From: Larkinella humicola
GTDB lineage: Bacteria; Bacteroidota; Bacteroidia; Cytophagales; Spirosomataceae
Direction of reading: 5' to 3'
Assembly: GCF_008727875.1 (NCBI RefSeq)
Contig: NZ_VTWS01000011.1
Location: forward strand, 1 to 64,000
DNA length: 64,000 bases
The stretch's first letter is position 1. Each line of letters opens with the position of its first letter. Below, piece by piece: positions 1 to 63,833 of this stretch. The notes under the pieces were generated by a model that was not told the origin of the DNA, did no database searches, and was given only the letters and a program-made list of their open reading frames with translations. The position numbers and the translations under genes are program-made.

Positions 1-58
1 TAGGGGAACGGGGCAGAAAGCGAAAGAGTGATAGAATTATCAGACGTAAGTCCTAACT
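1..58. repeat. Partial copy of the CCCCTAAAGGGG-type palindromic element
   Basis: The first bases of the window (TAGGGGAACGGGG, then AAAGCG, then AGAATTATCAGACG and AAGTCCTAA) reproduce, in the same order, the right half of the palindrome at 6091-6236. The matching left arm would lie before the window. It follows the 3' end of the minus-strand symporter gene at a distance of about 115 bp. Bases 61-175 show no gene or other recognisable signal. Confidence 0.6.
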
Positions 59-175
59 ATTTTATTATGAGTCAATTACGTACCATAGGTACGACATGTT
101 TCCGGGTCGCCGGTGCGATAGTCTCATAGTTCGCATTACTATTAAGGATTTCACTGACTAAAGTCCGTGAGTACG

Positions 176-1831
176 TTAATAAAATACCGAGAATACAACA
201 ATCACCAGTCCGGTAATGACCGCAGCACCAATCAAAAACGATCTTGATACCCGGAACCAACTGGCTTCCACGGCAAAGGCTTTCGGCGAATCGTGGCCTT
301 TCGATTCGGCCAGGCTGATCACGACCTGTAAGGCGACACACGCCCAGAAAACCAGCCCCATCCGGTTCAGGAATGGAATGTCGGTTGCATTGAATTTCAG
401 GTAAGCCGACAGCGGAATGCTTAGCAACGCAGCCGCCAGCGCCCCGTTGGAGGTGGCTTTTCTCCAGAAAAAACCGAGCAGAAAAATCGCCAGAATCCCC
501 GGCGAAATAAAACCGGTGTACTCCTGAATGTATTCGAAACCCTGCCCGAAGTTCTTCAAAAACGGACTGATTACCAAGGCAATGAGGAATGAAACCACGA
601 TGGCTATCCGCCCCCGCCACACGGTTTGTTTTTCGGTCAGGTTGGTGTTGAAAAACTTACGGTGAATATCGAGCATGTAAATCGTCGCGATGCTGTTGGC
701 TTTCCCGGCCAATGACGCCACAATGGCTGCCGTCAAAGCTGCAAACGCCAGCCCTTTCAGACCCACCGGCAGCAGGTTGAGTAAAACCGGGTAGGAATTA
801 TCCGGTTTCACAATACCGCCTTCGGTAATGCCCCGAACAATCGCCGGTTCGGCGTTTTCCTGAAACAATACATAAGCGGCCAAACCGGGCAGAACCACAA
901 TCAGGGGCATCAGGATTTTGAGAAACGAAGCAAACAACAGACCGTTGCGGGCCGTGTTGAGGTCGGCCCCCAAAGCGCGTTGCGTAATGTATTGATTACA
1001 ACCAAAATAGTTGAAATTGACGATCCATTGCCCGCCAATCACAAACATCATCAGACCGGGCAGTTGAGTGTAGGCATCCGTAAAACCGCCTTTTCCGTCG
1101 TGAACCTGATACTGCCCCTTGCTGAAAATCATGTGCAGATGGTGGTCTGCTTTTTCGCGAATCAGGCCTAATCCTTCAAAAATACCCGCGCCCGTTCCGA
1201 CCCGGTCAGACAGCAGATCAAGAGCCAGATAGGTGGTGGCCAGTCCGCCCACGACCAGACAAACAACCTGAATGACGTCCGTATAGCCAATCACTTTCAT
1301 GCCGCCCAGCGTGATGAAAACCGCAAAAACCGTCAGAAAAACGGCGCAGGCCATGAACCCGAAGCCGGTCATTTTTTCCAGACTCAAAGCTCCCAGGTAA
1401 ATGATGGACGTCAGGTTGACGAGGATGTACAGCAGCAGCCAGAAAACCGCCATGATCGTTGCCAGCCGACCATCGTAGCGTTTTTGCAGAAACTGCGGCA
1501 TGGTGTAAATCTTGTTTTTGATGTACATCGGCAGAAAATACACCGCAATGATGATGAGCGAAAAACCGCCCACCAGTTCATACACCGAAATTGCCAGACC
1601 AAGTTGAAAGGCCTGCCCGCTCATGCCGATGAATTGTTCTGCCGAGATGTTGGAAGCAATGATCGACGCGCCGATGGCCCACCACGTCAGGGAACCTTCG
1701 GCCAGAAAAAAGTCTTTCGAATCGGCGGTTTGCTTGCCTTTGTGGGTGTATACCCAGTATCCGTACACCGCGACGATGACGAAGTAAATGAGGAAGATGA
1801 AATAGTCAACCGATTCGAGTCCGAGGGTCAT
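176..1831 (-). CDS. Sodium/solute symporter (SSS/SGLT family), probable sugar transporter
   Basis: This is a 551-residue polytopic inner-membrane protein with about 14 predicted hydrophobic segments and the SSS-type N-terminus. An amphipathic first helix (about residues 8-28) is followed by the SLTWWAIGASIIASNISAEQF region typical of the second helix of SGLT-like transporters. The family couples Na+ influx to uptake of sugars and other small solutes. It is the last gene of an araA-araB-araD run on the same strand, so L-arabinose (or an arabinose-containing sugar) is the inferred substrate. The start ATG at 1831 lies just downstream of the palindrome at 1855-1940. Substrate specificity cannot be read from the sequence. 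Family assignment is firm; the role in arabinose uptake rests on context. Confidence 0.9.
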   Translation of the reverse strand: MTLGLESVDYFIFLIYFVIVAVYGYWVYTHKGKQTADSKDFFLAEGSLTWWAIGASIIASNISAEQFIGMSGQAFQLGLAISVYELVGGFSLIIIAVYFLPMYIKNKIYTMPQFLQKRYDGRLATIMAVFWLLLYILVNLTSIIYLGALSLEKMTGFGFMACAVFLTVFAVFITLGGMKVIGYTDVIQVVCLVVGGLATTYLALDLLSDRVGTGAGIFEGLGLIREKADHHLHMIFSKGQYQVHDGKGGFTDAYTQLPGLMMFVIGGQWIVNFNYFGCNQYITQRALGADLNTARNGLLFASFLKILMPLIVVLPGLAAYVLFQENAEPAIVRGITEGGIVKPDNSYPVLLNLLPVGLKGLAFAALTAAIVASLAGKANSIATIYMLDIHRKFFNTNLTEKQTVWRGRIAIVVSFLIALVISPFLKNFGQGFEYIQEYTGFISPGILAIFLLGFFWRKATSNGALAAALLSIPLSAYLKFNATDIPFLNRMGLVFWACVALQVVISLAESKGHDSPKAFAVEASWFRVSRSFLIGAAVITGLVIVVFSVFY

Positions 1832-1854
1832 GATTGCAGGAAGGTTTAGGGGTA

Positions 1855-1940
1855 AACCCAGACAGCGGCCAACGGCCCTGTCTGCGGTTGAACTGGAGCT
1901 ATCAAAACCGCAGACAGGGCTGTTGGCCGCTGTCTGGGTT
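1855..1940. repeat. Long inverted repeat between araD and the symporter gene
   Basis: Two 35-bp arms (1855-1889 and 1906-1940) match at 34 of 35 positions around a 16-nt loop. The right arm overlaps the araD stop codon (TAA on the minus strand, 1939-1941). There is no clear U-tract, so it is not a textbook intrinsic terminator. In the operon transcript it would form a very stable hairpin between araD and the transporter gene. Confidence 0.9.
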
Positions 1941-2637
1941 ACTGTCCGTAATAGGCATCTTTACCGTGTTTCCGGAAATAGTGTTTGTCAATCAGGCTTT
2001 GCTTGATGCGGGGCGTGTCGGGGTTGATGGTCAGCGTGAGGTAAGCCATTTTGGCTAGTTCTTCCAGAACCGTCGCATTGTAAACGGCTTTCGCCGGATT
2101 TTTCCCCCAGGCAAAGGGCCCATGACAGGCCACCAGCACCATCTCGACTTCGCTGACCGAAAGGTTATTTTCCCGGAACACATTCAGGATTTGGTTGCCG
2201 GTTTCGTGTTCGTAATCGCCCTGAATCATCGCGTCGGACATCACCTCCGTCACCGGAATGGAAGCCACCAGATGGTCGGCGTGGGTGGTGCCCAGGTTCG
2301 GAATTTCGCGCATGGCCTGCGCCCAGGCGACCGCATACGCCGAATGTGTGTGGCAAATACCGCCGATGGTTTCGAAATGGCGATACAGTAAGGTATGTGT
2401 TTTGGTATCGGACGATGGCCGCATTTTTCCTTCCACCAACTGGTTGTCCAGATCCACAATGACGATGTCGTCGGGCGTCAGTTCGTCGTACGGAATACCG
2501 CTCGGTTTGATGCCCACTACACCCGCTTGCCGGTCGATTCCGCTGACATTGCCGAAGGTGTAGATCGCCAGCTTCTGCCGGGGAATTTCCATATTGGCTT
2601 CGTAAACCGCTTCTTTCAGGGATTGATATAAACTCAT
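1939..2637 (-). CDS. araD: L-ribulose-5-phosphate 4-epimerase
   Basis: AraD is the class-II-aldolase-fold, zinc-dependent epimerase that converts L-ribulose 5-phosphate to D-xylulose 5-phosphate in the cytoplasm, the last step of arabinose catabolism. The 232-residue length matches the family. Visible signatures include GNVSGID near the N-terminus, the zinc-ligand region around THSAYAVAW and GTTHADHL, and HGPFAWG near residue 170. It is third in the operon, after araA and araB. A palindrome lies on each side, and the downstream one includes the stop codon. Identification is firm from the motifs and from the two neighbouring genes of the same pathway. Confidence 0.96.
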   Translation of the reverse strand: MSLYQSLKEAVYEANMEIPRQKLAIYTFGNVSGIDRQAGVVGIKPSGIPYDELTPDDIVIVDLDNQLVEGKMRPSSDTKTHTLLYRHFETIGGICHTHSAYAVAWAQAMREIPNLGTTHADHLVASIPVTEVMSDAMIQGDYEHETGNQILNVFRENNLSVSEVEMVLVACHGPFAWGKNPAKAVYNATVLEELAKMAYLTLTINPDTPRIKQSLIDKHYFRKHGKDAYYGQ

Positions 2638-2649
2638 AGTAAATCGTTT

Positions 2650-2720
2650 TTTGCCCCAACCCCCTGAAGGAGACTTAGGACAATTCTTTTTAAGCCCCCT
2701 TCAGGGGGTTGGGGGCATTT
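2650..2720. repeat. Inverted repeat between araB and araD, overlapping the araB 3' end
   Basis: The left arm contains GCCCCAACCCCCTGAAGG (from about 2653). The right arm contains CCTTCAGGGGGTTGGGGGC (about 2698-2716). The right arm covers the araB stop codon (2701-2703) and the codons before it, so the last residues of AraB (MPPTP) are encoded by the repeat. The spacer holds ACTTAGGACAATTCT, which resembles sequence in the 6091-6236 element. Confidence 0.85.
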
Positions 2721-4356: not shown

Positions 4357-4373
4357 AATGAGTTATGAGTTAT

Positions 4374-4470
4374 GAATGATGAGTTATGAATGATGAACGA
4401 TGAATTGGCTGACGCACGCGAAACAAACGCGTCAGCCAATTCATCGTTCATCATTCATAACTCATCATTC
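4374..4470. repeat. Perfect 42-bp inverted repeat between araA and araB
   Basis: The arms 4374-4415 and 4429-4470 are perfect reverse complements over 42 bp with a 13-nt loop. The arms consist of near-tandem units related to GATGAGTTATGAAT, and two more degenerate units (4358-4373) lie outside the left arm. The element directly abuts the araA stop codon (4471-4473). In the araAB transcript it would form an exceptionally stable hairpin without a U-tract. Confidence 0.95.
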
Positions 4471-5970
4471 TTAATGCTTTAAGTGATAATATGCTTCGTT
4501 CCAACGCAGTTCCTGTTTGAGGGCATGGATGCGGGTTTCTTCGTTGATCAGGACGTATTCGACGCCCGCGATTTCGGCAAAATCTTCCATGTATTCGGAG
4601 GAAATCGCTTTGCTGAAAACCGTGTGGTGTGCGCCCCCGGCCAGAATCCAGGCGGCTGCGGCTGTTTTCAAATTGGGTTTGGCATCCCACAACACGCGGG
4701 CAACCGGGAGTTTCGGCAATGGTTTTTCCGTCGGAACAACGTCCACTTCATTGACAATCAATCGAAACCGGTTTCCCATATCGACCACCGACGCATTGAT
4801 GGCGGCTCCGGGGGCCACATTGAACACCAGCCGAACCGGATCAGCTTTCCCGCCAATCGACAGGGGATGAATTTCGCAGGACGGTTTTCCGTCGGCAATC
4901 GATTCATCGATTTCAAGCATGTGCGCCCCCAACACCCGCTGGCCGTTGGGCGACAGGTGGTAGGTGTAATCTTCCATGAACGAACTGCCGCCCGGAAGCC
5001 CCGCTCCCATCACTTTGATGGCCCGGCCCAGTGCCGCCGTTTTCCAGTCACCTTCGCCCCCGAAACTGTAGCCATCGGCCATGAGCCGTTGTACGGCTAT
5101 TCCGGGCAGTTGATTCAGGCCGTGCAGGTCTTCGAAAGTATCCGTGAATCCTTTGATCTGGTGATCGTCCAGAAAACCGCGTAAACCAATTTCGATTTTG
5201 GCAGCATCGCGCAACGAATTGTGGCGTAACCCGGCTTTTTGTAGTTCGGCAACAATTTGGTACCGTTGTTCATATTCACTTACTAATGTATTGATTTCCT
5301 GGTCGGTTACCTGGTTGACGTACGCGACCAAATCCCCAATCCCGTAGCCGTAGACCGAATACCCAAACTTGATTTGAGCCTCTACTTTATCCCCTTCCGT
5401 GACGGCCACTTCACGCATGTTGTCACCAAACCGGGCAAACCGGGCACCCTGCAAATCGTGCCAACCGGCGGCTACCCGTGCCCACACATTCAGTCGTTCG
5501 TGTACTTCAGGGTCTTCCCAGTGTCCGACAACGACCTTCCGTTCCAGGCGCAAACGGGCGTTAATGAATCCGAACTCCCGGTCGCCATGCGCCGACTGGT
5601 TGAGGTTCATGAAATCCATGTCGATGGTTTCCCAGGGAATGTCACGGTTGAACTGGGTGTGCAGATGCAGCAGCGGCTTGCGCAGAATCTTCAAGCCGTT
5701 GATCCACATTTTGGCGGGCGAAAACGTGTGCATCCACGTCATCAAGCCAATGCAGTTGGCAGCGCTGTTGGCTTCCAGACACAGTTTATAGATTTCATCC
5801 GGGCCCGTCAGAACGGTTTTGAAAACAATTCTGACTGGAATGGCCGACGACTGGTTGAAGGCATCTACGATGGTCCGGGAATGTTCAGCAACCTGTTTGA
5901 GGGTGTCTTCACCGTATAAATGCTGGCTACCGGTAACAAACCAGGCTTCTAAATGGTCAAAAGAAATCAT
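4471..5970 (-). CDS. araA: L-arabinose isomerase
   Basis: AraA is the Mn2+-dependent cytoplasmic isomerase that converts L-arabinose to L-ribulose, the first step of the pathway. The 499-residue length equals the family norm. The regions that carry the metal ligands and catalytic residues are visible: [28 protein letters not shown] and [10 protein letters not shown]. It is the first gene of the minus-strand arabinose operon. A candidate promoter and operator lie about 50-90 bp upstream of the ATG at 5970. Its stop codon directly abuts the perfect 42-bp palindrome. I see nothing anomalous in the coding sequence. Confidence 0.97.
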
Positions 5971-6022
5971 TGGTGAGTGGGGTGTTGAGGTGGCCTGTCA
6001 ACGATCGATCAGGCTCTGGGGG

Positions 6023-6056
6023 CAAATATAAATAATAAATGTATTTTTTACGTTTA
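6023..6056 (-). promoter_or_regulatory. Candidate promoter and operator of the arabinose operon
   Basis: On the minus strand, TATATTTG (6030-6023) matches the Bacteroidota -7 consensus TAnnTTTG. Immediately upstream, 6036-6056 is an imperfect dyad TAAATGTA-N5-TACGTTTA (7 of 8 matches) occupying the -33 area, where no TTTG box is seen. A regulator-dependent promoter is a reasonable inference. No regulator gene lies in the window. Confidence 0.45.
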
Positions 6057-6090: not shown

Positions 6091-6236
6091 TTAGGACTTT
6101 CGCTTTTTGCCCCGTTCCCCTAAAGGACGGTCGGCCGCTGCCGGACTTGGACGCAGCTTAATCCAGATCCTATAAGTCCCCTTTAGGGGAACGGGGTAAA
6201 AAGCGACCGTGCAAAGAATTATCAGACGAAGTCCTA
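6091..6236. repeat. CCCCTAAAGGGG-type palindromic element upstream of araA
   Basis: The left arm at about 6101-6126 (CGCTTTTTGCCCCGTTCCCC and following) pairs with the right arm at about 6177-6205 with one mismatch. The outer ends TTAGGAC (6091-6097) and GTCCTAA (6230-6236) also pair. The right half is repeated at the very start of the window, and related cores occur at 2650-2720, 36511-36598 and inside leuS. The element lies in the 329-bp gap between araA and the helicase gene, which otherwise holds only the araA promoter and the helicase terminator. Confidence 0.8.
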
Positions 6237-12058: not shown

Positions 12059-12103
12059 CCCCTCAGCCCCGAAGCGTTGGACCGACGCTTCGGGGCTGAG
12101 GGG
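12059..12103. terminator. Perfect 19-bp hairpin between convergent VOC and OYE genes
   Basis: The arms CCCCTCAGCCCCGAAGCGT (12059-12077) and its exact reverse complement (12085-12103) enclose a 7-nt loop. The hairpin starts one base after the VOC stop codon and ends 8 bp before the convergent gene's stop. The TTTCTTT that follows on the plus strand makes it a plausible terminator for the VOC gene. It also fits the window-wide stop-proximal palindrome pattern. Confidence 0.8.
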
Positions 12104-14037: not shown

Positions 14038-14090
14038 CTTCCGTCTGATGCCCCCGGTTTCCTATCGGAAAAAGGGTCATCAGACGGAAG
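14038..14090 (-). terminator. Hairpin downstream of the M48 peptidase gene
   Basis: Perfect 13-bp arms CTTCCGTCTGATG (14038-14050) and CATCAGACGGAAG (14078-14090) flank a partly pairing C/G-rich centre. The hairpin lies 8 bp after the M48 stop codon on the minus strand. There is no strong T-run. It is either a terminator or another stop-proximal palindrome. Confidence 0.65.
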
Positions 14091-16979: not shown

Positions 16980-17052
16980 ACGGTTTTCAGTTTACGGTGG
17001 CTGACGCATTCTTGTCGAATGCACGCGTCAGCCACCGAAAACCGAAAACCGT
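16980..17052. repeat. Inverted repeat between convergent tlpA-like and histidine kinase genes
   Basis: The 28-bp arms 16980-17007 and 17025-17052 match at 26 positions around a 17-nt loop. The left side is preceded by two more units of the same ACGGTTTTCAGTTCACGGTTC type (16960-16979), so the arm itself is a degenerate tandem array. The outer copy starts directly at the stop codon of the TlpA-like gene, and the kinase gene ends 6 bp after the right arm. Confidence 0.9.
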
Positions 17053-21777: not shown

Positions 21778-21868
21778 TCGCGGAGTTGAGCGGAGGAAAA
21801 AGGGAGTTAAGCGGAGATTTTTTTTAAAACTCTGCTTAACTCCCTTTTTCCTCCGCTCAACTCCGCGA
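21778..21868. repeat. CGGAGTTGAGCGGAG-family palindrome, copy 1
   Basis: The 39-bp arms 21778-21816 and 21830-21868 match at 38 positions with a 13-nt loop of mostly T and A. The palindrome starts 10 bp after the dehydratase stop and ends 14 bp before the convergent epimerase stop. Closely related palindromes are at 28908-29009 and 39507-39598. The arms are built from repeated GAGTTGAGCGGAG/GAGTTAAGCGGAG units. Confidence 0.95.
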
Positions 21869-25474: not shown

Positions 25475-25588
25475 ATTGACGCTTTTAAACGGAACGCGAA
25501 TTCAGCGGATTGCACCGATCAAAACTGATTTTAATCGGTGCAAATCCGTTCAATCTGCTGAATCCGCGTTCCGTTTAAAAGCGTCAAT
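25475..25588. repeat. Nested inverted repeat in a divergent intergenic region
   Basis: The 37-bp arms 25475-25511 and 25552-25588 match at 35 positions. Inside the loop a second small stem (CACCGAT/ATCGGTG) can form. Its inner sequence AAATCCGTTCAATCTGCTG is similar to the repeat at 41069-41149, which is read as protein. This is one of the few palindromes not next to a stop codon: it lies between divergently transcribed genes, 22 bp from the start of one of them. Confidence 0.92.
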
Positions 25589-27893: not shown

Positions 27894-28925
27894 ATGCCTA
27901 TCGATTTACGAAGTGATACCGTTACCAAACCCAGCCCGGCCATGCTGGAAGCGATGTTCACGGCCGAAGTGGGCGACGATGTGTTAGGCGACGACCCCAC
28001 CGTGCTGACCCTGGAGGCAAAAGCCGCCCGGTTGTTCGGGATGGAAGCGGCCCTTTTCTGCACGTCCGGCACGATGACCAACCAATTGGCGATTCGCACC
28101 CACACCCGCCCGGGCGACGATGTGATCTGTGACCAGCTTTCACACGTTCACCTCTACGAAGGCGGGGGCATCGCCGTCAATGCGCTGGCGTCGCTCAGTC
28201 TGGCCCAAGGCGAACGCGGAAAACTGACGCCCGAGCTGGTGCGCGACCATATTCAGCCCGACGATCTGCACAAGCCGATTACACGGCTGGTTTGTCTGGA
28301 AAATACCGTCAACAAAGGCGGGGGCTGTTATTACACCATTCCCGAAATTGCCGCCATCCGGCAGGTTTGCGACGAACACGGGTTGAAACTGCACCTCGAC
28401 GGCGCGCGCTTGTTCAATGCGCTGGTCGAAACCGGGGAAAGCCCGGAAGCGTATGGTCAGCTCTTCGATTCGATCAGCATTTGCCTGTCCAAAGGATTGG
28501 GTTGCCCGGTGGGGTCGCTGTTGCTGGGGAAAACGGATGTGATCAAGCAGGCCCGGCGCTACCGGAAACTGATGGGGGGTGGCTGGCGTCAGGCCGGTTA
28601 TCTGGCCGCTGCGGGCATCTACGCCCTCGACCACCACATCAACCGCCTGAAACTCGACCACGCCCGCGCCCGGAAAATCGGTCAGATGCTGCTGCTGTTG
28701 CCGGAAGTGGAAGAAATTTACCCCATCGACACCAATATTGTCATTTTCCGGCTGAACCAGAACATCTTAGCCGCCGATTACGTTGACGAGTTAGCCCGCA
28801 AAGGAATTTTAGCCGTTACCTTCGGAAAACACCTGGTCCGGTTCGTGACACACCTGGACTTTACGGATGAGCACCTTTTGAGTTTAGAAGAGAAAATTAA
28901 AGAAGGCGTTGTTTCGCAGGGTTGA
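27894..28925 (+). CDS. ltaE: Low-specificity L-threonine aldolase
   Basis: This is a PLP-dependent aldolase of fold type I that cleaves L-threonine or L-allo-threonine to glycine and acetaldehyde. Conserved elements are IDLRSDTVTKPSPAM at the N-terminus, FCTSGTMTNQLAI, the Asp of LHLDGARLFNA, and the PLP-binding lysine in CLSKGLGCPVGS (about residue 200). I start at the ATG at 27894; the frame is open ten codons upstream. The last residues (VVSQG) and the stop codon lie inside the palindrome at 28908-29009, so the C-terminus is repeat-derived. The neighbouring GNAT-nitrilase gene follows 98 bp later. Confidence 0.94.
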   Translation: MPIDLRSDTVTKPSPAMLEAMFTAEVGDDVLGDDPTVLTLEAKAARLFGMEAALFCTSGTMTNQLAIRTHTRPGDDVICDQLSHVHLYEGGGIAVNALASLSLAQGERGKLTPELVRDHIQPDDLHKPITRLVCLENTVNKGGGCYYTIPEIAAIRQVCDEHGLKLHLDGARLFNALVETGESPEAYGQLFDSISICLSKGLGCPVGSLLLGKTDVIKQARRYRKLMGGGWRQAGYLAAAGIYALDHHINRLKLDHARARKIGQMLLLLPEVEEIYPIDTNIVIFRLNQNILAADYVDELARKGILAVTFGKHLVRFVTHLDFTDEHLLSLEEKIKEGVVSQG

Positions 28926-29009
28926 GCGGAGAAGGCAGAGTTAAGCAGAGAAAAATAAAAAAAGATCTCCGCTTAACTCCCTTAACTCTGCTCAACTCCG
29001 CAAAACAAC
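28908..29009. repeat. CGGAGTTGAGCGGAG-family palindrome, copy 2, overlapping the ltaE stop
   Basis: The 43-bp arms 28908-28950 and 28967-29009 match at about 32 positions. They share long blocks with the palindromes at 21778-21868 and 39507-39598. The left arm contains the ltaE stop codon (28923-28925). The right arm ends 14 bp before the start codon of the next gene. Confidence 0.9.
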
Positions 29010-29023
29010 CCCTGTTACAAAAC

Positions 29024-30630: not shown

Positions 30631-30673
30631 AAAAAATGCCCGTCAGAACTTGAAGACCTGACGGGCATTTTTT
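30631..30673. terminator. Bidirectional intrinsic terminator
   Basis: Perfect 16-bp arms AAAAAATGCCCGTCAG (30631-30646) and CTGACGGGCATTTTTT (30658-30673) provide a GC-rich stem with a T-run on either strand. They lie between the convergent GNAT-nitrilase and GDPD genes, and the right end touches the GDPD stop codon at 30672. Confidence 0.92.
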
Positions 30674-31552: not shown

Positions 31553-31640
31553 ATACACCGGTCAGTTTTTGAAAACCTAACCGGTGTATTGATTAATCTA
31601 TCGTGCCAAAACTGGTTAAGTTCTGAAAACCTAACCGGTG
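31553..31640. repeat. Two adjacent hairpins of the ACCGGTTAGGTTTTCA type
   Basis: ATACACCGGT (31553-31562) pairs with ACCGGTGTAT (31580-31589), enclosing a TTTTTGAAAACC centre. A second degenerate copy (about 31609-31640) repeats TGAAAACCTAACCGGTG. The pair lies between fumC (stop at 31648) and the GDPD gene (start at 31538) on the minus strand, so it follows the fumC stop codon. Related CCAGGTTTTCAAAACC sequence occurs at about 13268-13290. Confidence 0.8.
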
Positions 31641-36471: not shown

Positions 36472-36510
36472 TTGACAACGTAAGTTTATAAGAATTCGCT
36501 TCGTCCTGCG

Positions 36511-36598
36511 CCTTTGCCCCCGACCCCTAAAGGGGCGCGGACGTCGCTTTATCCGGATGGCTCGGCGTCCGTGCCCCTTTAGGGGTCGGGGGCAAAGG
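36511..36598. repeat. CCCCTAAAGGGG-type palindrome after leuS
   Basis: The 33-bp arms 36511-36543 and 36566-36598 match at 32 positions. The core GACCCCTAAAGGGG is shared with the 6091-6236 element. AGAATTCGCTTCGTCCT (36491-36507), outside the left arm, resembles the flank of that element. It lies 20 bp after the leuS stop codon (minus strand). Confidence 0.92.
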
Positions 36599-36618
36599 CC
36601 GGATTTAGTGACAAGTTG

Positions 36619-39480: not shown

Positions 39481-39506
39481 ATAAACTTCTTTTTATGCGC
39501 TTTAAA

Positions 39507-39598
39507 GTTGTTTCGCAGAGTTAAGCGGAGGAAATCAGAGTTTATCAGAGTTTTCTCTGCTGAACTCCTTTTTACTCTGATAAACTCTGCGAAACAAC
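39507..39598. repeat. CGGAGTTGAGCGGAG-family palindrome, copy 3
   Basis: The left arm starts GTTGTTTCGCAGAGTT and the right arm ends in its reverse complement AACTCTGCGAAACAAC, with weaker pairing inward. Bases are shared at length with the copies at 21778-21868 and 28908-29009. It lies between the minus-strand sorbosone-dehydrogenase-like gene (stop at 39622) and leuS (start at 39480). Confidence 0.92.
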
Positions 39599-39621
39599 TC
39601 ACTCGCAAAAGTAGGATTTTC

Positions 39622-44829: not shown

Positions 44830-44905
44830 AGGGTAGACAAGAGAGAAAAGACGCAAATCAACGGCTGCCACTTTCTTTATTCTCTTGTCTCATCTCTCTT
44901 GTCAA
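44830..44905. repeat. GACAAGAGAGA-type hairpin between TauE/SafE and metZ genes
   Basis: GGTAGACAAGAGAGAAAAGA (from about 44832) pairs imperfectly with TCTTGTCTCATCTCTCTTGTC (about 44883-44903). It begins directly after the stop codon of the TauE/SafE gene and ends 10 bp before the metZ ATG. Similar AGACAAGAGA units recur in the repeat at 56196-56300. Confidence 0.65.
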
Positions 44906-47726: not shown

Positions 47727-48440
47727 ATGATCGCGGAACCTTCCTATACAATCGACAGCCTGGCGGAACGCCTGGCGGGCAAGAGCGAAGTTGAAAGCCT
47801 GCAAACGCTGGCCGAATTATTTCCAGGCCAGGTGGTTTTTTCATCCAGCCTGGGCTACGAAGACCAGGTGATTACGGACATGATCCTGGCCAACAACCTG
47901 CCCATCCGGATTTTTTCGCTGGATACCGGCCGAATGTTCAATGAAACGTATCAGGTTTGGCAGAAAACCAACAGCCGGTACGATACCAAAATTGAAGCTT
48001 ACTTCCCGAAAGGCGAATCGGTGGAGAAACTGCTGAACGAAAAAGGCCCGTTCAGTTTCTATGAATCGGTCGAAAACCGGAAAGAATGCTGTTTTATCCG
48101 GAAGGTCGAACCGCTGAACCGGGCACTGAAAGGCAACAAAATCTGGGTGACCGGTATTCGCGCCGAACAGTCGCAAAACCGCCAGACCATGACGCAACTG
48201 GAAGCGGATGATGCGCATCAGTTGATCAAATTTCATCCGCTGATGAACTGGTCGTTTGACGAAGTGAAAGCCTATGTACGCCAGCACAATGTGCCGTACA
48301 ACCCGCTTCACGACCGCGGTTTCGTGTCGATCGGTTGCCAGCCCTGCACCCGGGCCATTCAGGAAGGCGAAGACTTCCGGGCCGGTCGCTGGTGGTGGGA
48401 AGATAATTCGAAAAAGGAATGTGGTTTACATGCTAAATGA
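47727..48440 (+). CDS. cysH: Assimilatory adenylyl-sulfate (APS) reductase
   Basis: This 237-residue PP-loop-family reductase has the loop SSSLGYEDQVI near residue 38. It has the two Cys pairs of APS reductases that bind a [4Fe-4S] cluster: KECCFIRK (about residue 130) and GCQPCTRA (about 212), plus the catalytic KKECGLH at the C-terminus. PAPS-specific enzymes lack the extra cysteines. No CysC kinase is in the operon, which agrees with APS as substrate. The product is sulfite. It is first gene of cysH-cysD-[mntA-hepT]-cysN, with a palindrome separating it from cysD. Confidence 0.94.
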   Translation: MIAEPSYTIDSLAERLAGKSEVESLQTLAELFPGQVVFSSSLGYEDQVITDMILANNLPIRIFSLDTGRMFNETYQVWQKTNSRYDTKIEAYFPKGESVEKLLNEKGPFSFYESVENRKECCFIRKVEPLNRALKGNKIWVTGIRAEQSQNRQTMTQLEADDAHQLIKFHPLMNWSFDEVKAYVRQHNVPYNPLHDRGFVSIGCQPCTRAIQEGEDFRAGRWWWEDNSKKECGLHAK

Positions 48441-48509
48441 GTGATTGAGTGATTGAGTGAATTAGCGAAATGCCTTCACTCAATCGCCCATTCGCTCAAT
48501 CACTCAATT
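48437..48509. repeat. GAGTGATTGAGTGATT-type palindrome between cysH and cysD
   Basis: AATGAGTGATTGAGTGATTG units on the left pair with CAATCGCCCATTCGCTCAATCACTCAATT on the right (rc ATTGAGTGATTGAGCGAATG). It begins at the cysH stop codon and ends a few bases before the cysD ATG. The arms are near-tandem 8-9 bp units. Confidence 0.88.
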
Positions 48510-53766: not shown

Positions 53767-53774
53767 GAATGATG

Positions 53775-53852
53775 AGTTAAGAGTTAAGAGTTAAGAGTTG
53801 TCTTTCTGCTTGCGTTAGCCAACTCTTAATTCTTCACTCTTCACTCTTAACT
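53775..53852. repeat. GAGTTAAGAGTTAAGA-type palindrome after sulfite reductase
   Basis: Left: GTTAAGAGTTAAGAGTTAAGAGTTG (rows of 8-bp near-tandem units). Right: CAACTCTTAATTC followed by TTCACTCTTCACTCTTAAC. They pair imperfectly over about 25-30 bp. It starts 8 bp after the stop codon and ends 8 bp before the SUMT ATG. Confidence 0.85.
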
Positions 53853-54610: not shown

Positions 54611-54618
54611 TCCAATTA

Positions 54619-54702
54619 CTTTTACATTTAGTATTTAACATTTTACGTTTTAAATTATCTTTTAATATTAAATGTAAAATGATAAATATTAAATGTAAAA
54701 GT
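54619..54702. repeat. AT-rich palindrome of TTTACATTTA type
   Basis: Left ACTTTTACATTTAGTATTTA (54619 onward) pairs with right TTAAATGTAAAAGT (about 54689-54702). Additional TTAAATGTAAAATG units lie inside. It follows the SUMT stop by 8 bp. It differs sharply in base composition from its neighbours. Confidence 0.85.
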
Positions 54703-56195: not shown

Positions 56196-56300
56196 ATAGA
56201 CCAGAGAGGAGAGACAAGAGAAGGTAGACAAGCTGTTCGTTCTCTGACCACTAGCTTTCCAGATTCTTTTTTCTCCTGTCTATTCTCTCTTGTCATAAAT
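56196..56300. repeat. GACAAGAGA-type palindrome downstream of osmC-like gene
   Basis: AGACCAGAGAGGAGAGACAAGAGA units (56199-56224) pair imperfectly with TCTCCTGTCTATTCTCTCTTGTC (about 56272-56294). It starts right after the stop codon. Related units occur at 44830-44905. Confidence 0.7.
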
Positions 56301-59275: not shown

Positions 59276-59292
59276 CCGGTTTCGGTATCGAT

Positions 59293-59336
59293 CAAATAAC
59301 GAATGTAATTTTAATCCTAAGTTTATTCGTTATTTA
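59293..59336. terminator. Inverted repeat between polX and the receptor gene
   Basis: CAAATAACGAAT (59293-59304) pairs with ATTCGTTATTTA (59325-59336) at 11 of 12 positions around a 20-nt AT-rich loop. It follows the PolX stop by about 18 bp and precedes the receptor start by 54 bp. It could be a weak terminator or an operator. Confidence 0.5.
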
Positions 59337-59389
59337 CTATTCAATATTTGATCTTTACAACACGAAACCAATTTTACAACCTGACCTAC

Positions 59390-61792
59390 ATGCGATTTTT
59401 CTACTTCACCATTGTGTGCAGTTGGCTTATCTTTTCTGTTGCGGCAGCCCAGCCCAAAAGCGACCAATCCAATCATTCCCTCACGGGCTACATTCGCGAC
59501 GCAATCACCAAAAAACCCATTCAGGGCGTAACGGTTTTTATTACCGAAAACCGCCGGGGCGTTAACACGAGTCGCGACGGTTTTTTTGTCATTCCCCTCC
59601 CCGACGGCACCTATAACGTCAAATTTACCCACATCGGTTTTCGGCCGCAAACGCATTCCATTGTCCTGAACAAAACGGTTTTGACAGAAATTTTGCTGGA
59701 AGACGATTCCAAGGATCTGGAAGAAGTGACCGTCACGACCGAAGCACCCGACCGGAATGTAAAGAAAGTGGAACTGGGCGTCACGCAGATGTCCATCAAA
59801 ACCATCAGGCGCATTCCGGCTTTTATGGGGGAAGCCGACGTGGTGCGGAGTCTGCTGCTGCTGCCGGGCGTTACCACCGTGGGCGAAGGCGCTCCCGGCA
59901 TCAATGTTCGGGGGGGCAGCACCGACCAGAATCTGGTGCTGATGGACGACGCGCCTATTTTCAATTCGAGCCATTTGATGGGCTTTTTCTCGGTTTTTAA
60001 TCCGGATATTGTCCGCGACGTTACGCTCAACCGGGGCGGTATTGCGCCGAGTATGGGCGGAAGGGCGGCATCCGTGCTCGACATTCGGGTGAAAGAACCG
60101 GAGATCGACAAACTCAGGGTAAATGGCGGGATCGGAATCGTCGCCAGTCGATTGGGCCTTGAGGGGCCTTTATTCAATAAAAAACTCTCGTTTCTGCTGG
60201 CCGGGCGGGCGTCGTTCAATGATTTTCTGTTTAAACTCATGCCCCGCAGTATTCGGGAAACGAAAGCGAATTTCTACGACCTGACGACTAAATTAAAATT
60301 CCAACCCAGTGAAAAACATACCGTTACGTTCACGGGGTACACGAGTCACGACGAATTTAAACTGGCATCCGATTCACTTTCGACCGTAGAAGTCAATGCC
60401 TCTTCCACGGTTTTTGAATACCGAACCGTCAATGGTACGCTGAAATGGAACTATTTCATCAACGATCGTTTCAATCTGACTACCACCGCCATATACAGCC
60501 AGTACCGCCCCGAAACCTCCGCGCCCGACCCGGCCAATGCGTTCCGGCTCACCTCGGAAATTTTGCACCGCCAACTGAAAGCCGACCTGAGTTATGCCGC
60601 AACGAGTAACCACCAGTTGCAGGGTGGCATCAGCCTGATCGATTATTACCTCCAGCCCAATAAGCTCGTCCCCGGTTTTCAATCGAACGTGCTGCCGAAA
60701 GCGATGCCCATCGAACGGGCGTATGAACTGGCGGTGTATGCTCAGGATGAATGGAAAGTGAATGAAGCCTTTTCCATTCTGGGTGGGATTCGCTATTCCC
60801 AACTGCTGAACCGGGGACCGGCCAGCGTTCCGATTTATCAGGAAGGCGTTCCCCGCGAACCCGAAACGACATCCTCTTCCACCGCCCACACCAAAGGACA
60901 GATTTACCACCAGGCAGGCGGTATCGAACCACGTCTGGCGTTGCGCTGGACTGTGGCCGAAGGTCAGTCCATCAAGGCGGGTTACAACCGCCTGCGGCAA
61001 TACATTCACCTGATTACCAACACAACTGCCGCGCTGCCCGTCTCGCGCTGGAAGCTGAGCGATTCGTTCGTGAAGCCCCAGATTGCTGATCAATGGTCGG
61101 TGGGCTATTTCAAAAATACCGCCGGAAATGCGTTTGAAGCGTCGGCGGAAGTGTACTATAAAACGTTGCAAAATGCCATTGATTTCAAGGATGGGGCGGA
61201 ATTGGTGCTCAATCCGACCCCCGAAACCGAGTTGTTGCAGGGAACCGGCCGGGCCTACGGACTGGAAACCCAGCTCCGCAAAAATAAAGGCCATTGGATC
61301 GGCTGGGTCAGTTACACCTACTCCCGGTCATTCTATACCATCAACGGCCCTTTCCGGGAAGAAAAGGTGAATAATGGCATCGAATATCCGACCAACTTCG
61401 ACAAACCGCACACGCTGAATGCCATGACAACCTTTCGGCCCAACAGCCGGGTGAATGTGTCGTTCAATTTCACATACAGCACCGGCCGCCCCGTGACCCA
61501 GCCCTACGCCCGGGCCCGCGTCAACGGCATCGTCGTCCCCATTTATGTAAACCGGAACCAGCAGCGGATTCCCGATTACCACCGGCTGGATTTTGCCGTC
61601 GAGTTCAATCAGAATCCAGCCCAAAAAAGGCAGTGGGAACGGAGCTGGGTCTTTTCGATCTACAATGTATACGCCCGGAAGAATGCCTATTCAGTGTTCT
61701 TCAAGGTCAATTCGGCATCGTTGTCCGATGGCTACAAACTGTCGGTGTTTGGATCGGCCTTCCCATCACTGACCTACAATTTCAAGTTTTGA
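59390..61792 (+). CDS. TonB-dependent outer-membrane receptor with carboxypeptidase-regulatory-like domain
   Basis: The mature protein starts after a signal peptide (MRFFYFTIVCSWLIFSVAAA). It contains a CarboxypepD_reg-like domain (SLTGYIRDAITKKPIQGVTVFI, about 30-110), a plug domain (VRSLLLLPGVTTVGEGAPGINVRGGSTDQNLVLMDD, about 150-200) and a 22-strand beta-barrel ending in TYNFKF. About 800 residues. Such receptors import large or scarce substrates using TonB energy. The partner downstream is a DUF4249 lipoprotein, a conserved pairing in this phylum. Substrate unknown. Start ATG at 59390 chosen for the signal peptide. Confidence 0.95.
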   Translation: MRFFYFTIVCSWLIFSVAAAQPKSDQSNHSLTGYIRDAITKKPIQGVTVFITENRRGVNTSRDGFFVIPLPDGTYNVKFTHIGFRPQTHSIVLNKTVLTEILLEDDSKDLEEVTVTTEAPDRNVKKVELGVTQMSIKTIRRIPAFMGEADVVRSLLLLPGVTTVGEGAPGINVRGGSTDQNLVLMDDAPIFNSSHLMGFFSVFNPDIVRDVTLNRGGIAPSMGGRAASVLDIRVKEPEIDKLRVNGGIGIVASRLGLEGPLFNKKLSFLLAGRASFNDFLFKLMPRSIRETKANFYDLTTKLKFQPSEKHTVTFTGYTSHDEFKLASDSLSTVEVNASSTVFEYRTVNGTLKWNYFINDRFNLTTTAIYSQYRPETSAPDPANAFRLTSEILHRQLKADLSYAATSNHQLQGGISLIDYYLQPNKLVPGFQSNVLPKAMPIERAYELAVYAQDEWKVNEAFSILGGIRYSQLLNRGPASVPIYQEGVPREPETTSSSTAHTKGQIYHQAGGIEPRLALRWTVAEGQSIKAGYNRLRQYIHLITNTTAALPVSRWKLSDSFVKPQIADQWSVGYFKNTAGNAFEASAEVYYKTLQNAIDFKDGAELVLNPTPETELLQGTGRAYGLETQLRKNKGHWIGWVSYTYSRSFYTINGPFREEKVNNGIEYPTNFDKPHTLNAMTTFRPNSRVNVSFNFTYSTGRPVTQPYARARVNGIVVPIYVNRNQQRIPDYHRLDFAVEFNQNPAQKRQWERSWVFSIYNVYARKNAYSVFFKVNSASLSDGYKLSVFGSAFPSLTYNFKF

Positions 61793-61798
61793 TTCGTT

Positions 61799-62893
61799 AT
61801 GAAAAGCCTGATTCCTACCGGTTTTCCTTTGCTGTTTTTTCGCCCGAGACTGGCCTTTCTGCTGATTTTGGGTCTGGTCAGCTCGTGCATCAGCCCCTAT
61901 CAGCCGGATACACAATCCATCGGGCGGGCTCTGGTCGTGGAAGGATTGATCACCGACCAGCCAGGGCCCTATGCTGTCAACCTCACGCAAACCGCCGACT
62001 ACACGTATTCGGGTTTGAACCTGCTGGTCAGTGGTGCCACGGTAACGCTATCCGACAATGCCGGGAATCAGGAGGTGCTTCGGGAAGCCAGTCCGGGCTA
62101 TTACCAAACTGCGGCAACCGGCATCCGGGGCACTGTAGGCCGCTCGTATAAAATCGCCATCCGAACCACCGACGGGAAACAATATGAATCGTCTCTGGAA
62201 GTATTAAAAACCGCCCCGCCGATTAGCCAACTGAGTTACGAATACCAGTATAATACGGCATCCTTCGAAAACGACAAACGGAACACCTGGGCCGTTTATC
62301 TGGACACCAAAGACCCGGAAACGCCCGGCGATTATTACCGGTGGGTGTGGAAGAATTACGAGTTTACGGCAGCCTGTCAGTTGAGCCCCAATATCAATTC
62401 GGAGGGATACTACATGGGGTTACCTTGCTGCACGGATTGCTGGGATATTAACCAGTGCTACAGCAACTGCATCAACATCAGCTCCGACGCGGCCATCAAC
62501 GGAAAAGCCATTAGCCGTCAATATATTATGAGCGTACCGTTTACGTCGCGCGGCATGTATTACGTGGAAGTGGAGCAGCAATCGATCAGTCCGGGTGCCT
62601 ACCAGTTTTTCAACAGTGTCAAAAAACTGGTCAACAACACGGGCGGTTTATTTGATGCCGCTCCGGCGGCCGTTGGCGGAAATATCAAGTGTACCAGCAA
62701 TCCGGGCGAGGTCGTTTACGGGTATTTTGGGGCCGCCGGGGTTAGCGTAATGGCTTTAAAAGTCGATCGGTCGAAAGAGGCCGTCGGCATTCCAAACGGC
62801 AAGAATATCCTGCTCGATAACCTGGCGCCCTGCCTTGCCTGCGAAAACAGCATCTACCGAACACCCAACAAACCCCGATTCTGGGATCAGTAG
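61799..62893 (+). CDS. DUF4249 domain lipoprotein
   Basis: The 364-residue protein has a lipoprotein signal (about residues 1-30, LVSSC) and a DUF4249 fold of mostly beta structure. It starts with VVEGLITDQPGPYAVNLTQT and has a Cys-rich insert (CCTDCWDINQCYSNCINI, about residues 203-220). It is probably the surface partner of the receptor encoded 6 bp upstream, comparable in context to SusD-like proteins. The last codons and the TAG stop (62891-62893) lie inside a REP-centred palindrome, so its C-terminus WDQ is repeat-derived or mirrored into the repeat. Confidence 0.9.
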   Translation: MKSLIPTGFPLLFFRPRLAFLLILGLVSSCISPYQPDTQSIGRALVVEGLITDQPGPYAVNLTQTADYTYSGLNLLVSGATVTLSDNAGNQEVLREASPGYYQTAATGIRGTVGRSYKIAIRTTDGKQYESSLEVLKTAPPISQLSYEYQYNTASFENDKRNTWAVYLDTKDPETPGDYYRWVWKNYEFTAACQLSPNINSEGYYMGLPCCTDCWDINQCYSNCINISSDAAINGKAISRQYIMSVPFTSRGMYYVEVEQQSISPGAYQFFNSVKKLVNNTGGLFDAAPAAVGGNIKCTSNPGEVVYGYFGAAGVSVMALKVDRSKEAVGIPNGKNILLDNLAPCLACENSIYRTPNKPRFWDQ

Positions 62894-62956
62894 CTTCCCA
62901 CCCCGTCAGCGGTCGCAGACCCTGACAGCGGTGGGAAGCCACTGATCCCAGAATCG
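62876..62956. repeat. REP-centred palindrome overlapping the DUF4249 stop
   Basis: Arms 62876-62902 and 62930-62956 (27 bp) match at 26 positions. The only mismatch is in the stop codon TAG (TGG in the mirror arm). The centre is the REP core 62901-62928, identical over 28 bp to 63715-63742. The outer arm sequence is that of the gene's 3' end, thus specific to this locus. Confidence 0.93.
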
Positions 62957-62999
62957 TCCAAATAAACCGCTAATAGGGTCCCAAATAACACCTTCCAAG

Positions 63000-63071
63000 G
63001 TCATCCAATCAGGATCCGCACCCCGTCAGGGTCTTCGACCGCTGACGGGGTGCGGATCCTGATTGGATGAC
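63000..63071. repeat. REP-centred perfect palindrome upstream of the RAYT gene
   Basis: Perfect 29-bp arms 63000-63028 and 63043-63071 with a 14-nt loop contain the CCCCGTCAGGGTC...CTGACGGGG REP core in the opposite orientation to the first REP. The outer 21 bp are locus-specific. It precedes the RAYT ATG by about 40 bp. Confidence 0.95.
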
Positions 63072-63112
63072 TTTTAGTACCGGTTTTCGTCAAAACCTAA
63101 AACGAAAAACCG

Positions 63113-63739
63113 ATGGAAGAAATTGAGCCCCTCGAGCCAGGGCGGTATTACCACATTTACAACCGTGGAATCAATGGAACAGCCCTTTTTTCCACCGCCC
63201 ACCATTATCGTTTCTTCTTAATACAATATGCCAACTACCTAACTCCGGTTGTTGACACGTTTGCATATTGCCTCATGAAAAACCACTTTCATCTGATGGT
63301 TCGGGTAAAAGAAGTGCATGAATTTGATCAGGAGAAACTTTTAAGCGAACGGGGCTGGTTGAAAGTCCCCAATGCCAGCCGACAATTTTCCAATCTCTTC
63401 AACAGTTATGCGCAAGATTTCAATGCCAATACCCAACGAACCGGCAGTTTGTTCGAACGCCCTTTTCACCGGAAAGTGGTTACGGATGACTCTTACTTTA
63501 CCCGGCTTATTTTCTACATTCACAATAACCCCGTTAAACACGGCGTAACCGGAGATTTGACAACGTATTTGTCTTCTTCCTACCAGAGTCACCTATCGGC
63601 TAAGCCTACTTTATTGATGCGGGAAGCGGTTTTGACGTGGTTTGGCGGGAGAAAAGAATACATTCATTTCCACCAGGACATGAGCAACGAGGACTTTGGC
63701 GACCTATTCACCCACCCCGTCAGCGGTCGCAGACCCTGA
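63113..63739 (+). CDS. REP-associated tyrosine transposase (RAYT, IS200-like)
   Basis: This 208-residue Y1-type single-strand transposase has the HuH-like motif MKNHFHLMV (His58, His60) and the catalytic tyrosine in FYIHNNPVKHG (Tyr135). The N-terminus RYYHIYNRGINGTALF and the sequence GSLFERPFHRKVV are typical of RAYTs. RAYTs process REP hairpins and are thought to spread them. REP pairs flank it on both sides. Its last residues (HPVSGRRP) and the stop codon are encoded by REP 63715-63742, so the gene ends inside its own presumed substrate. Confidence 0.93.
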   Translation: MEEIEPLEPGRYYHIYNRGINGTALFSTAHHYRFFLIQYANYLTPVVDTFAYCLMKNHFHLMVRVKEVHEFDQEKLLSERGWLKVPNASRQFSNLFNSYAQDFNANTQRTGSLFERPFHRKVVTDDSYFTRLIFYIHNNPVKHGVTGDLTTYLSSSYQSHLSAKPTLLMREAVLTWFGGRKEYIHFHQDMSNEDFGDLFTHPVSGRRP

Positions 63740-63742
63740 CAG
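63715..63742. repeat. REP element within the RAYT 3' end
   Basis: CCCCGTCAGCGGTCGCAGAC followed by CCTGACAG is identical to 62901-62928 (28 of 28). It encodes the C-terminal HPVSGRRP and the TGA stop of the RAYT. Together with the inverted copy at about 63780-63810 it forms a REPIN-like pair. Confidence 0.92.
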
Positions 63743-63756
63743 GGTTGAAATCCGGG

Positions 63757-63833
63757 CCCTACTTGATTGTGATACCCTACCGCTGTCAGGGTCTGCGACC
63801 ACTGACGGGGTGGGGTATCACAATCAAGTAGGG
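63757..63833. repeat. REP-centred palindrome downstream of the RAYT gene
   Basis: Arms CCCTACTTGATTGTGATACCC (63757-63779, with two more bases) and its complement (63811-63833) match at 22 of 23 positions. The centre is a REP core (GCTGTCAGGGTCTGCGACCA and CTGACGGGG) inverted relative to 63715-63742. The outer arms again are unique to this site. Confidence 0.93.

Follow-up and report, generated by a model that had tools for sequence, protein, structure and literature searches.

That quasipalindromes can be corrected is an idea older than the present analysis and was reportedly put forward by van Noort in 2003. In a study of inverted repeats in yeast coding sequences, homogenization of the arms together with inversion of the spacer is the signature of template switching (PMC8604942), and a second paper proposes that template switching creates and maintains RNA stems (PMC8794818). 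REP and REPIN elements are short palindromic words with numerous intergenic copies that frequently form inverted pairs (PMC3733652, PMC3116915, PMC2817692). TAACTGA-type heptamers are intergenic direct repeats of the Beggiatoaceae, Cyanobacteria and some Bacteroidetes whose dispersal is unexplained and which, in the best-studied genome, lie mostly just upstream of starts (PMC4679880). Bacterial inverted repeats are stated to peak 50-80 bp after stop codons (PMC13155455). No description of gene-end palindromes from Larkinella, Spirosoma or Bacteroidetes of the kind reported here was found among the matches listed from the open-access literature, and one may exist elsewhere; in a search of that literature for spacer inversion in bacterial intergenic regions, only the yeast paper among the matches listed holds the term.

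The window, a stretch of 64,000 nucleotides from the Larkinella humicola genome (G000), was analyzed together with two other contigs of that genome, C13 and C16, and this sample of 464 kb contains 95 long hairpins. The strict scan, which accepted ungapped hairpins with a score of at least 14 (match +1, mismatch -2), returned 18 hairpins in the window (W), 42 in C13 and 35 in C16. Dinucleotide shuffles gave 0, 0 and 0 hairpins for the window, 0, 0 and 0 for C13, and 0, 1 and 0 for C16, so each shuffle of a stretch yielded at most one. The intergenic palindromes listed in an initial annotation of the window are real, as 17 of the 21 places coincide with a hairpin of the strict scan; the other four (28908-29009, 31553-31640, 44830-44905 and 56196-56300) score 11-13, below the cut-off. 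Loss of the hairpin nuclease SbcCD does not explain this abundance since Sbc(C)D-like genes are present: an sbcD match exceeds its cut-off, and beside it is an SbcC-like frame below its own cut-off, as is likewise the case in 13 of 14 control genomes.

Proximity to stop codons, which the same annotation had described, is borne out at 17 of the 21 places, each overlapping a stop codon or lying no more than 20 bp from the nearest one. The exceptions are 6091 (63 bp), 39507 (23 bp), 63000 (106 bp) and 25475, which is at a divergent junction with no stop. None of 2000 random placements put hairpins as close to stops as the real ones. Across 1.61 Mb from eight Larkinella genomes, hairpins are present at 190 of 693 co-directional, 76 of 142 convergent and 18 of 209 divergent junctions. 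With these counts high at convergent and low at divergent junctions, hairpins follow gene 3' ends, and there are about 0.27 hairpins per 3' end, or one at about a quarter of the ends checked. The median distance in these genomes is 9 bp to the stop and 38 bp to the next start; 165 of 196 co-directional hairpins are nearer to the stop than to the start, and 39 abut or overlap the stop codon. Palindrome arms can reach into coding ends and provide the stop codon. Sister species with about 97% protein identity were compared at orthologous junctions, and the features of the window, none of which is assigned to a strand, are given here with their counterparts.

1855-1940: palindrome with 35-bp arms that overlaps the stop (1939-1941) of a gene of the class II aldolase family, with an SSF transporter gene next; the loop is flipped compared with sister G004, and G007 retains only a remnant of about 27 bp.
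2654-2714: family B palindrome (GCCCC..CCCCTRAAGGGG) enclosing the TGA (2701-2703) that ends the FGGY kinase gene; missing in G007.
4370-4474: palindrome with 46-bp arms, heptamer units (GAATGAT/GAGTTAT) and a GGCTGACGC head, lying between the genes for arabinose isomerase and kinase; counterparts in G004 and G007 have arms of 22 and 27 bp and differ in sequence.
6091-6236: family B palindrome with its scan core at 6100-6206; the loop is flipped compared with G004, and the palindrome is missing in G007.
12059-12103: palindrome with 19-bp arms at a convergent junction that is occupied by different sequences in G004 and G007.
14038-14090: hairpin with 17-bp arms, retained at this position in both G004 and G007.
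16980-17052: family H palindrome (CGGTTTAC heptamers and the GGCTGACGC head) at a convergent junction; missing in G004.
21778-21868: family C palindrome (TTTCGCRGAGTTRAGCGGAG, 10-bp units) at a convergent junction.
25475-25588: palindrome with 45-bp arms at a divergent junction, an exception to the stop rule.
28904-29013: imperfect family C palindrome (score 13) containing the stop of the upstream gene (28923-28925); counterparts in G004 and G007 are far better matched (score 37 each).
30631-30673: ordinary two-sided U-tract terminator outside the palindrome families, missed by the initial annotation.
31553-31640: a pair of short AAACCTAACCGGT-type palindromes, not a simple long one.
36510-36599: family B palindrome after leuS; missing in G007.
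39506-39599: family C palindrome upstream of leuS; found in G004, G007, G008 and G005, missing in G006.
44830-44905: imperfect palindrome of the AGACAAGAGA type.
48437-48509: palindrome of 8-bp units (ATTGAGTG); family C occupies the same junction in G004.
53774-53852: palindrome of GAGTTAA heptamers.
54618-54702: palindrome of ACATTTA heptamers; G007 has another sequence with perfectly matched 33-bp arms.
56196-56300: AGACAAGAGA-type palindrome, followed (by eye) by a separate short T-run hairpin; loop orientation opposite between G004 and G007.
62876-62956: palindrome with a central family A core; its 5' arm is the coding end of gene 61799-62893 with the TAG stop (62891-62893), and its 3' arm is an inverted copy of that coding end.
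63000-63071: second family A hairpin, core orientation opposite; arms differ in G004 and G007 yet match within each.
63711-63833: inverted pair of family A cores (63711-63814, arms 32, loop 40), overlapped by the hairpin initially annotated at 63757-63833.

The presence of a palindrome differs between sister species at the same junction. Summed over the three regions, the comparison of G000 with G007 gives 21 palindromes found only in G000, 7 only in the sister and 45 in both. The initial annotation had named two outcomes that would count against its proposal, an absence of stop proximity and invariant presence across relatives, and neither occurred. Among the presence/absence junctions listed, one empty/filled site, C13:108076, has an imperfect flanking direct duplication, to which no weight is given.

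Within the arms, double changes between G000 and G007 are compensated in 53 cases and uncompensated in 8, where 25.3 doubles of any kind would be expected if the two sides were independent. When the partner was slid by +3 or -3, compensated and uncompensated doubles numbered 7 and 20 or 8 and 15, respectively, in a control that needs no starting pair and is thus an imperfect match to the real comparison. Compensated changes likewise predominate between G000 and G004 (20 versus 5, expected 8.7; slid controls 1 versus 8 and 3 versus 10) and between G008 and G005 (6 versus 2), with little excess between G001 and G002 (6 versus 5, expected 4.8). Homogenization of the arms is partial because one-sided changes between G000 and G007, of which there are 131, outnumber the compensated doubles. 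Loops were inverted in 11 of 111 orthologous comparisons and had the same orientation in 26. These calls used a threshold of 22, set at the 99% point of controls from mismatched loci, but the highest control reached 86 because some same-family or same-locus loops had been admitted. A conservative set of seven flipped loci was kept, those after C13:125336 (an exact flip at 18/18), C16:129730, C16:182092, C16:192107, W:1831 (exactly at the threshold), W:5970 and W:56193. Dropped from the 11 inverted rows were G004-G007 at 69428, which represents two different hairpins of one junction, and two weak word matches between G008 and G005; C16:182092 appears twice. The seven loci have arms of 15-38 bp and loops of about 15-53 bp.

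It is probable that these gene-end quasipalindromes have been extended, homogenized and flipped by template switching during replication. Both signatures of that process were observed, arm homogenization (weak in G001-G002) and in-place loop inversion at the seven loci. The sequence comparisons suggest that one half of a palindrome has repeatedly been recopied from the other half during DNA replication, in which case the palindromes would resemble a by-product of copying errors more than conserved RNA signals. When a replication fork meets a hairpin, the nascent strand would jump to the other arm, on the same or the sister strand, and copy it, and such arm-to-arm copying would repair mismatches, lengthen the arms into the flank and flip the loop. 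Because the arms contain degenerate units of 7 or 10 bp, they could pair out of register, so that arm length would also be expected to change by slippage. Gene 3' ends would tolerate palindromes in that the last codons and the stop are replaceable, whereas elsewhere promoters and ribosome sites would be disrupted; retention, and not RNA function, would then be the main reason for their position. Template switching leaves the dispersal of palindromes to new loci unexplained, which counts against it.

Alternatively, though with distinctly lower probability, the palindromes could be hairpins of transcript 3' ends that serve as intrinsic or bidirectional terminators or as stabilizers of operon mRNA and are kept complementary through selection on the RNA. 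A function in transcripts also predicts the strong link to gene 3' ends and the distribution over junctions seen here, convergent junctions would suit two-sided termination, and most of the 21 places fold very stably. The mismatches within the arms argue against selection on RNA since G·U (72) does not clearly exceed A·C (59) on the sense strand at co-directional junctions, whereas U-tract terminators gave 10 G·U and 1 A·C (Fisher p 0.025 versus palindromes), a small control of 11 mismatches in 27 terminators, some of which may be the same locus in sister species. Only co-directional junctions entered the count, as no sense strand can be defined at the others, where the + strand has 31 G·U and 23 A·C mismatches at convergent and 4 and 18 at divergent junctions. 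This strand-asymmetry test, with its small control, found no RNA-level selection on pairing, and the near equality of G·U and A·C suggests DNA-level rather than RNA-level pairing. For the same reason, the results give no support to the protection of mRNA 3' ends, offered by the initial annotation, as what maintains arm complementarity, even if the hairpins may have an RNA-level effect. U-tracts are as rare as that annotation had claimed, with at least 5 T in the next 8 nucleotides in only 34 of 196 co-directional hairpins, and at least one palindrome (56196-56300) is followed by a hairpin with its own T-run. Of the three palindromes in the ara gene cluster, G007 lacks one, has a remnant of another and a shorter version of the third, which further weakens a role for these hairpins in the transcript.

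The arms, which reach 59 bp, are variable in length and locus-specific, and consist of degenerate 7- or 10-bp units. Within 70 arms, identity peaks at lags of 7, 14 and 21 (z 10.1, 6.2 and 4.7) and of 10 and 20 (z 4.3 and 3.5), in agreement with the near-tandem units, different in each family, that had been noted from the window. The best period is significant (p <= 0.05) in 29 of the 70 arms, where about 3-4 are expected by chance, and is 7 or 14 in 18 of these and 10 in 8. A 12-mer is common to another hairpin in 64 of the 95 hairpins, whereas intergenic DNA without hairpins, matched in length, gives a mean of 8 and at most 21 of 95. Two words that were tested range from 0 to 82 copies across nine Larkinella genomes and have zero copies in almost every one of 112 genomes sampled from other genera; judged from these copy numbers, the word families are expanded within Larkinella. 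Iterated folding, with palindromes nested inside arms, was considered and rejected (3 of 55 arms; shuffled mean 1.1, maximum 3). Cases in which the words of the 5' arm might show a strand preference at divergent versus other junctions were few by eye, too few to test.

These families largely uphold the earlier idea of a self-propagating class at gene ends, given their dispersal, their variation in copy number and the differences in presence between sisters. The description as mobile is not borne out if it means transposition of an element whose ends are fixed, as the arms are partly locus-specific and no mover was linked to the families of the window. A rather doubtful extension of template switching is that the palindromes are selfish DNA without a transposase, in which hairpin-forming words of period 7 or 10 would be the replicator. 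Such words would grow, be repaired and be flipped by template switching, and long-range template switching or ectopic conversion would carry them to new gene ends; the tolerance of 3' ends would give them a refuge, where they would rewrite C-termini and stops.

The palindromes are improbable candidates for REP/REPIN elements mobilized by RAYT (Y1_Tnp) transposases. The genome has seven Y1_Tnp matches, three of these have neighboring words that are found again in dispersed palindromes, and the palindrome families are dispersed and lineage-variable. Flank words at L153 are also in C13:26576 and C13:104407, those on one side of L201 are also in C13:1-46, C13:66411 and C16:1-50, and the flank of L202 shares a single 12-mer with C16:1792. 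At L201, the Y1_Tnp match is followed after about 120-160 bp by family H words, on one side only, and preceded by a family B palindrome at a distance of about 1.3 kb. A 14-mer of 1855-1940 and a 13-mer of 14038-14090 recur at L154, each of them within a called gene. RAYT-REP pairs usually have REP words on both sides of the RAYT gene, but a family of the window was found on both sides in none of the seven neighborhoods (about 1.5-2 kb each side), the RAYT-linked words cover only about 6 of the 95 palindromes, and the arms are locus-specific and variable in length, without a fixed element end. A RAYT as mover of the families of the window was not convincingly found in the seven Y1_Tnp neighborhoods.

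Very little probability attaches to the idea that assembly or short-read artifacts produced the apparent differences or flips between genomes. Two sampled contigs of G000, C13 and C16, begin inside a palindrome, and arms as long as the word size of an assembler can mask loop orientation; however, the one-contig genome G002 also shows hairpins and turnover, one flipped locus has arms of only 19 bp in G000 and 26 and 15 bp in the sisters, and we know of no assembly error that makes compensated point changes within arms. A site-specific recombinase flipping the loops in the manner of a phase-variation switch, to which the in-place inversions seen at several loci would be suited, is hardly credible given that the flipped loops are so short and that there is no obvious common recombination site because arm sequences differ between flipped loci.

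Changes that compensate one another in a hairpin are usually taken to prove that an RNA structure is conserved. Since compensation occurs here without RNA-level asymmetry, covariation at gene ends in bacteria could arise from DNA copying alone. Changes in palindromes may account for fast-changing gene ends, stop codons and short C-terminal tails. Larkinella, whose studied genome has about 2 such hairpins in every 10 kb and whose sister species are about 97% identical, would be a natural laboratory for rates of template switching.

Intrinsic transcription terminators are, like the Larkinella palindromes, hairpins after stop codons, but the Larkinella arms are long, mostly without a U-tract, in some cases inside gene clusters, and do not have clearly more G·U than A·C mismatches. 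TAACTGA-type repeats share with them intergenic units of 7 bp; the Larkinella units differ in forming inverted pairs, in lying mostly downstream of stops and in comprising many different degenerate heptamers. REP and REPIN elements are likewise dispersed palindromic intergenic repeats, whereas the Larkinella arms, of up to 59 bp, are variable and locus-specific, their loops flip and their arms change together, and no RAYT is convincingly linked to the families of the window. There is a close likeness in behavior to template-switch quasipalindromes, in which arms are also made identical and loops inverted in place. In contrast to those cases, Larkinella has many long palindromes at gene 3' ends within one bacterial genus, their arms belong to dispersed word families of 7- or 10-bp units, and the changes extend into coding ends and stop codons.

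Contig C2 in the 7.86-Mb genome of L. humicola (G000), a member of the Spirosomaceae, begins with the 64 kb of the window. The majority of 20 scanned window proteins are ordinary metabolic or regulatory proteins, and the window carries an ara cluster encoding L-arabinose isomerase, an FGGY kinase, a class II aldolase-family protein and a sodium:solute symporter. A hairpin scan that required ungapped arms and allowed a loop of up to 80 found 18 hairpins in the window, 42 in a 200-kb stretch of contig C13 and 35 in one of contig C16, compared with 0-1 in dinucleotide shuffles (three for each stretch). The three together hold 95 hairpins in 464 kb, which extrapolates to about 1,600 in G000. The palindromes reported in the initial annotation are real; 17 of its 21 places passed the scan, the remaining four being weaker. 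Genes were called with a purpose-made hexamer-based caller, whose starts are approximate and stops less so. Hairpins at co-directional junctions (57) lie on average 26 bp from the upstream stop codon, with overlaps counted as 0, while random placement in the same gaps gave a mean of 73 +/- 15 and 0 of 2000 placements gave one as small as that observed. Among junctions of 30-1500 bp in 14 stretches from eight Larkinella genomes (1.61 Mb), hairpins occur at 190 of 693 co-directional, 76 of 142 convergent and 18 of 209 divergent junctions, counts that are not independent because sister species have many loci in common. The co-directional hairpins start 25 bp or less from the stop in 161 of 196 cases; 39 of the 196 abut or overlap the stop codon and 2 overlap the start of the next gene.

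Identity within the arms peaks at lags of 7, 14 and 21 as well as 10 and 20 (70 arms of at least 20 bp). The best period was significant in 29 of the 70 arms, and in 26 of those 29 it was 7, 14 or 10. The words involved are as follows.
Period 7: GAGTTAA/GAATGAT, CGGTTTA, GAATATC and TTTACAT.
Period 10: GCAGAGTTAA/GCGGAGGAAA.
GC-rich families with no clear period: CCCCTAAAGGGG; the core CAGGGTCTKCGACCGCTG.

Of the 95 hairpins, 64 have a 12-mer in common with another hairpin; when matched hairpin-free intergenic pieces were drawn 20 times, the number averaged 8 and never exceeded 21 of 95. Exact copies of the family C word TTTCGCRGAGTTRAGCGGAG number 72 in L. humicola, 82 in L. punicea (G004), 24 in the Larkinella genome G007 and 0 in L. 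soli (G006), with 1 copy among 112 sampled genomes from other genera of the family. For the family A core, these four genomes have 32, 41, 14 and 0 copies, Larkinella genomes G001 and G002 have 0, and its 11 copies outside the genus are confined to two of the 112 sampled genomes. Judging from these copy numbers inside and outside Larkinella, both expanded within the genus. Nearly loop-free palindromes of the AGACCTGTCAGGTTTT/AAAACCTGACAGGTCT type occur at C13:84652-84736 and at window 31553-31640 and its sister junctions, and are paired at some junctions.

Sister genomes were compared over regions whose median protein identity is 96.7-97.7%; aligned sequence outside hairpins diverges by 8.6% in the G000 comparisons. 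Summed over three regions, the G000-G007 junctions comprise 143 with no hairpin, 45 with one in both genomes, 21 where only G000 has one and 7 where only G007 does; the corresponding G000-G004 counts are 95, 41, 3 and 11 (G004 only). Positions at which both arms had changed often kept their pairing (compensated double changes), as listed here with the doubles of any kind expected if the two sides were independent.
G000-G007: 53 compensated, 8 uncompensated, 25.3 expected; 131 one-sided changes.
G000-G004: 20 compensated, 5 uncompensated, 8.7 expected; 85 one-sided changes.
G008-G005 (two further Larkinella genomes): 6 compensated, 2 uncompensated, 2.5 expected; 24 one-sided changes.
G001-G002: 6 compensated, 5 uncompensated, 4.8 expected; 26 one-sided changes.

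Sliding the partner position in G000-G007 gave 7 compensated and 20 uncompensated changes at +3, and 8 and 15 at -3. Homogenisation of the arms is incomplete, since one-sided changes are still commoner than compensated doubles.

Selection on the transcript is one way in which pairing could be kept, in which case G·U should be tolerated on the sense strand and A·C should not. On the sense strand of the co-directional palindromes, G·U mismatches number 72 and A·C mismatches 59 (binomial p 0.29), and the scan scores the two identically. The corresponding numbers in 27 one-directional U-tract terminators from the same stretches are 10 and 1; the difference has p 0.025 with loci common to sisters counted separately. 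The near-equal counts in the palindromes, set against those in the terminators, argue for arm pairing that would reflect copying at the DNA level, with which a hairpin effect on transcripts remains compatible.

Loops of at least 10 bp were compared 111 times. They are in the same orientation in 26 cases and inverted in 11, the threshold being the 99% point of mismatched-locus controls; the maximum of these controls is 86, because some control pairs are related loops. The inverted rows include one comparison of non-orthologous hairpins, two weak matches of words and a locus that appears twice; once these were dropped, seven flipped loci were retained.
Window 1855-1940: G000 versus G004, score exactly at the threshold.
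Window 6091-6236: G000 versus G004.
Window 56196-56300 junction: G004 versus G007.
Elsewhere in G000: C13:125336, C16:129730, C16:182092 and C16:192107.

Two others, C13:84642 and C13:189333, look inverted in the sister alignment but are not among the rows passing the loop-orientation test. The seven loci have arms of 15-38 bp, which are too short and too near one another for ordinary homologous recombination. Published work explains in-place loop flips by replication strand switching (PMC8604942).

Coding sequence can itself form an arm. In the palindrome at 62876-62956, the terminus of gene 61799-62893 together with its TAG stop makes up the 5' arm, of which the 3' arm is an inverted copy; the arms have CGATT/AATCG in G000 where G007 has CGTTT/AAACG. 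The G008 counterpart has the core repeat alone after the gene stop, followed downstream by a second core in inverted orientation. G004 has a shorter 3' arm at this place. The palindrome at 2654-2714 contains the TGA stop of a kinase gene, and in G007 the palindrome is absent and the gene end is different. We infer from these comparisons that the core came first, its flank then being copied into the arm.

Dispersal by RAYT-like proteins bears on few of the palindromes. There are seven Y1_Tnp (RAYT-like) matches in G000, and words near three of the genes recur in a few dispersed palindromes.
L153, C13:803680-807024: AACCGTTTTAACGGTT, recurring in C13:26576 and C13:104407.
L201, C13:522601-526800: the CTCCGGAGGAGCGG word, recurring in C13:66411, C13:1-46 and C16:1-50.
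L202, on contig C15, C15:286700-290800: a single 12-mer, ACGGCACGCGGG, in common with C16:1792.

On the evidence of these words, minor REPIN-like sets exist in G000, apart from the families of the window; RAYT-linked words account for about 6 of the 95 palindromes, with zero window palindromes among them. Beyond the Y1_Tnp match in L201, at a distance of about 120-160 bp and on a single side only, there are family H words, and locus L154 has a 14-mer and a 13-mer in common with two window palindromes, within a called gene; these we take as neighbouring-junction and chance matches. The contig starts C13:1-46 and C16:1-50 fall inside the same CTCCGGAGGAGCGG palindrome, which probably breaks the assembly, since both sampled contigs start within it. 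An inverted array of CGACCGAGGGCTCCGACG-like units with 117-bp arms lies near a RAYT gene at L155:2176-2478.

Breadth was surveyed at 80 named loci around leuS (1.69 Mb, chiefly Bacteroidota by record titles, three of them Larkinella), which contain 181 hairpins versus 2 in one shuffle each, at densities of 0 to 5.2 per 10 kb. Overall, G000 has about 2.0 hairpins per 10 kb, and the window has 2.8; at the leuS region of other Larkinella the density is 1.25 (G002) to 2.6 (G004). By eye, short terminator-like stems make up many of the hairpins at the other loci, and several long ones occur at some loci, such as L039 from Spirosoma arboris and L075 from a Cytophagales MAG. The densest of the 80 is L075:1-22925, with 12 hairpins in 22.9 kb, 7 scoring at least 20. 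LeuS of the window is 84-98% identical over matched stretches to that of the eight other Larkinella genomes; in L. knui (G003), G001 and G002 (loci L009, L010 and L011) the match is split in two near residue 652-674, with a longer open frame of 1009-1026 aa that points to an in-frame insertion.

The initial annotation had proposed a self-propagating palindrome class at gene ends, which comes close. Maintenance of the palindromes is best accounted for by template switching, a known process. What is new here is the scale, the location at gene ends, the architecture of 7/10-bp units and the extension of arms into stop codons.
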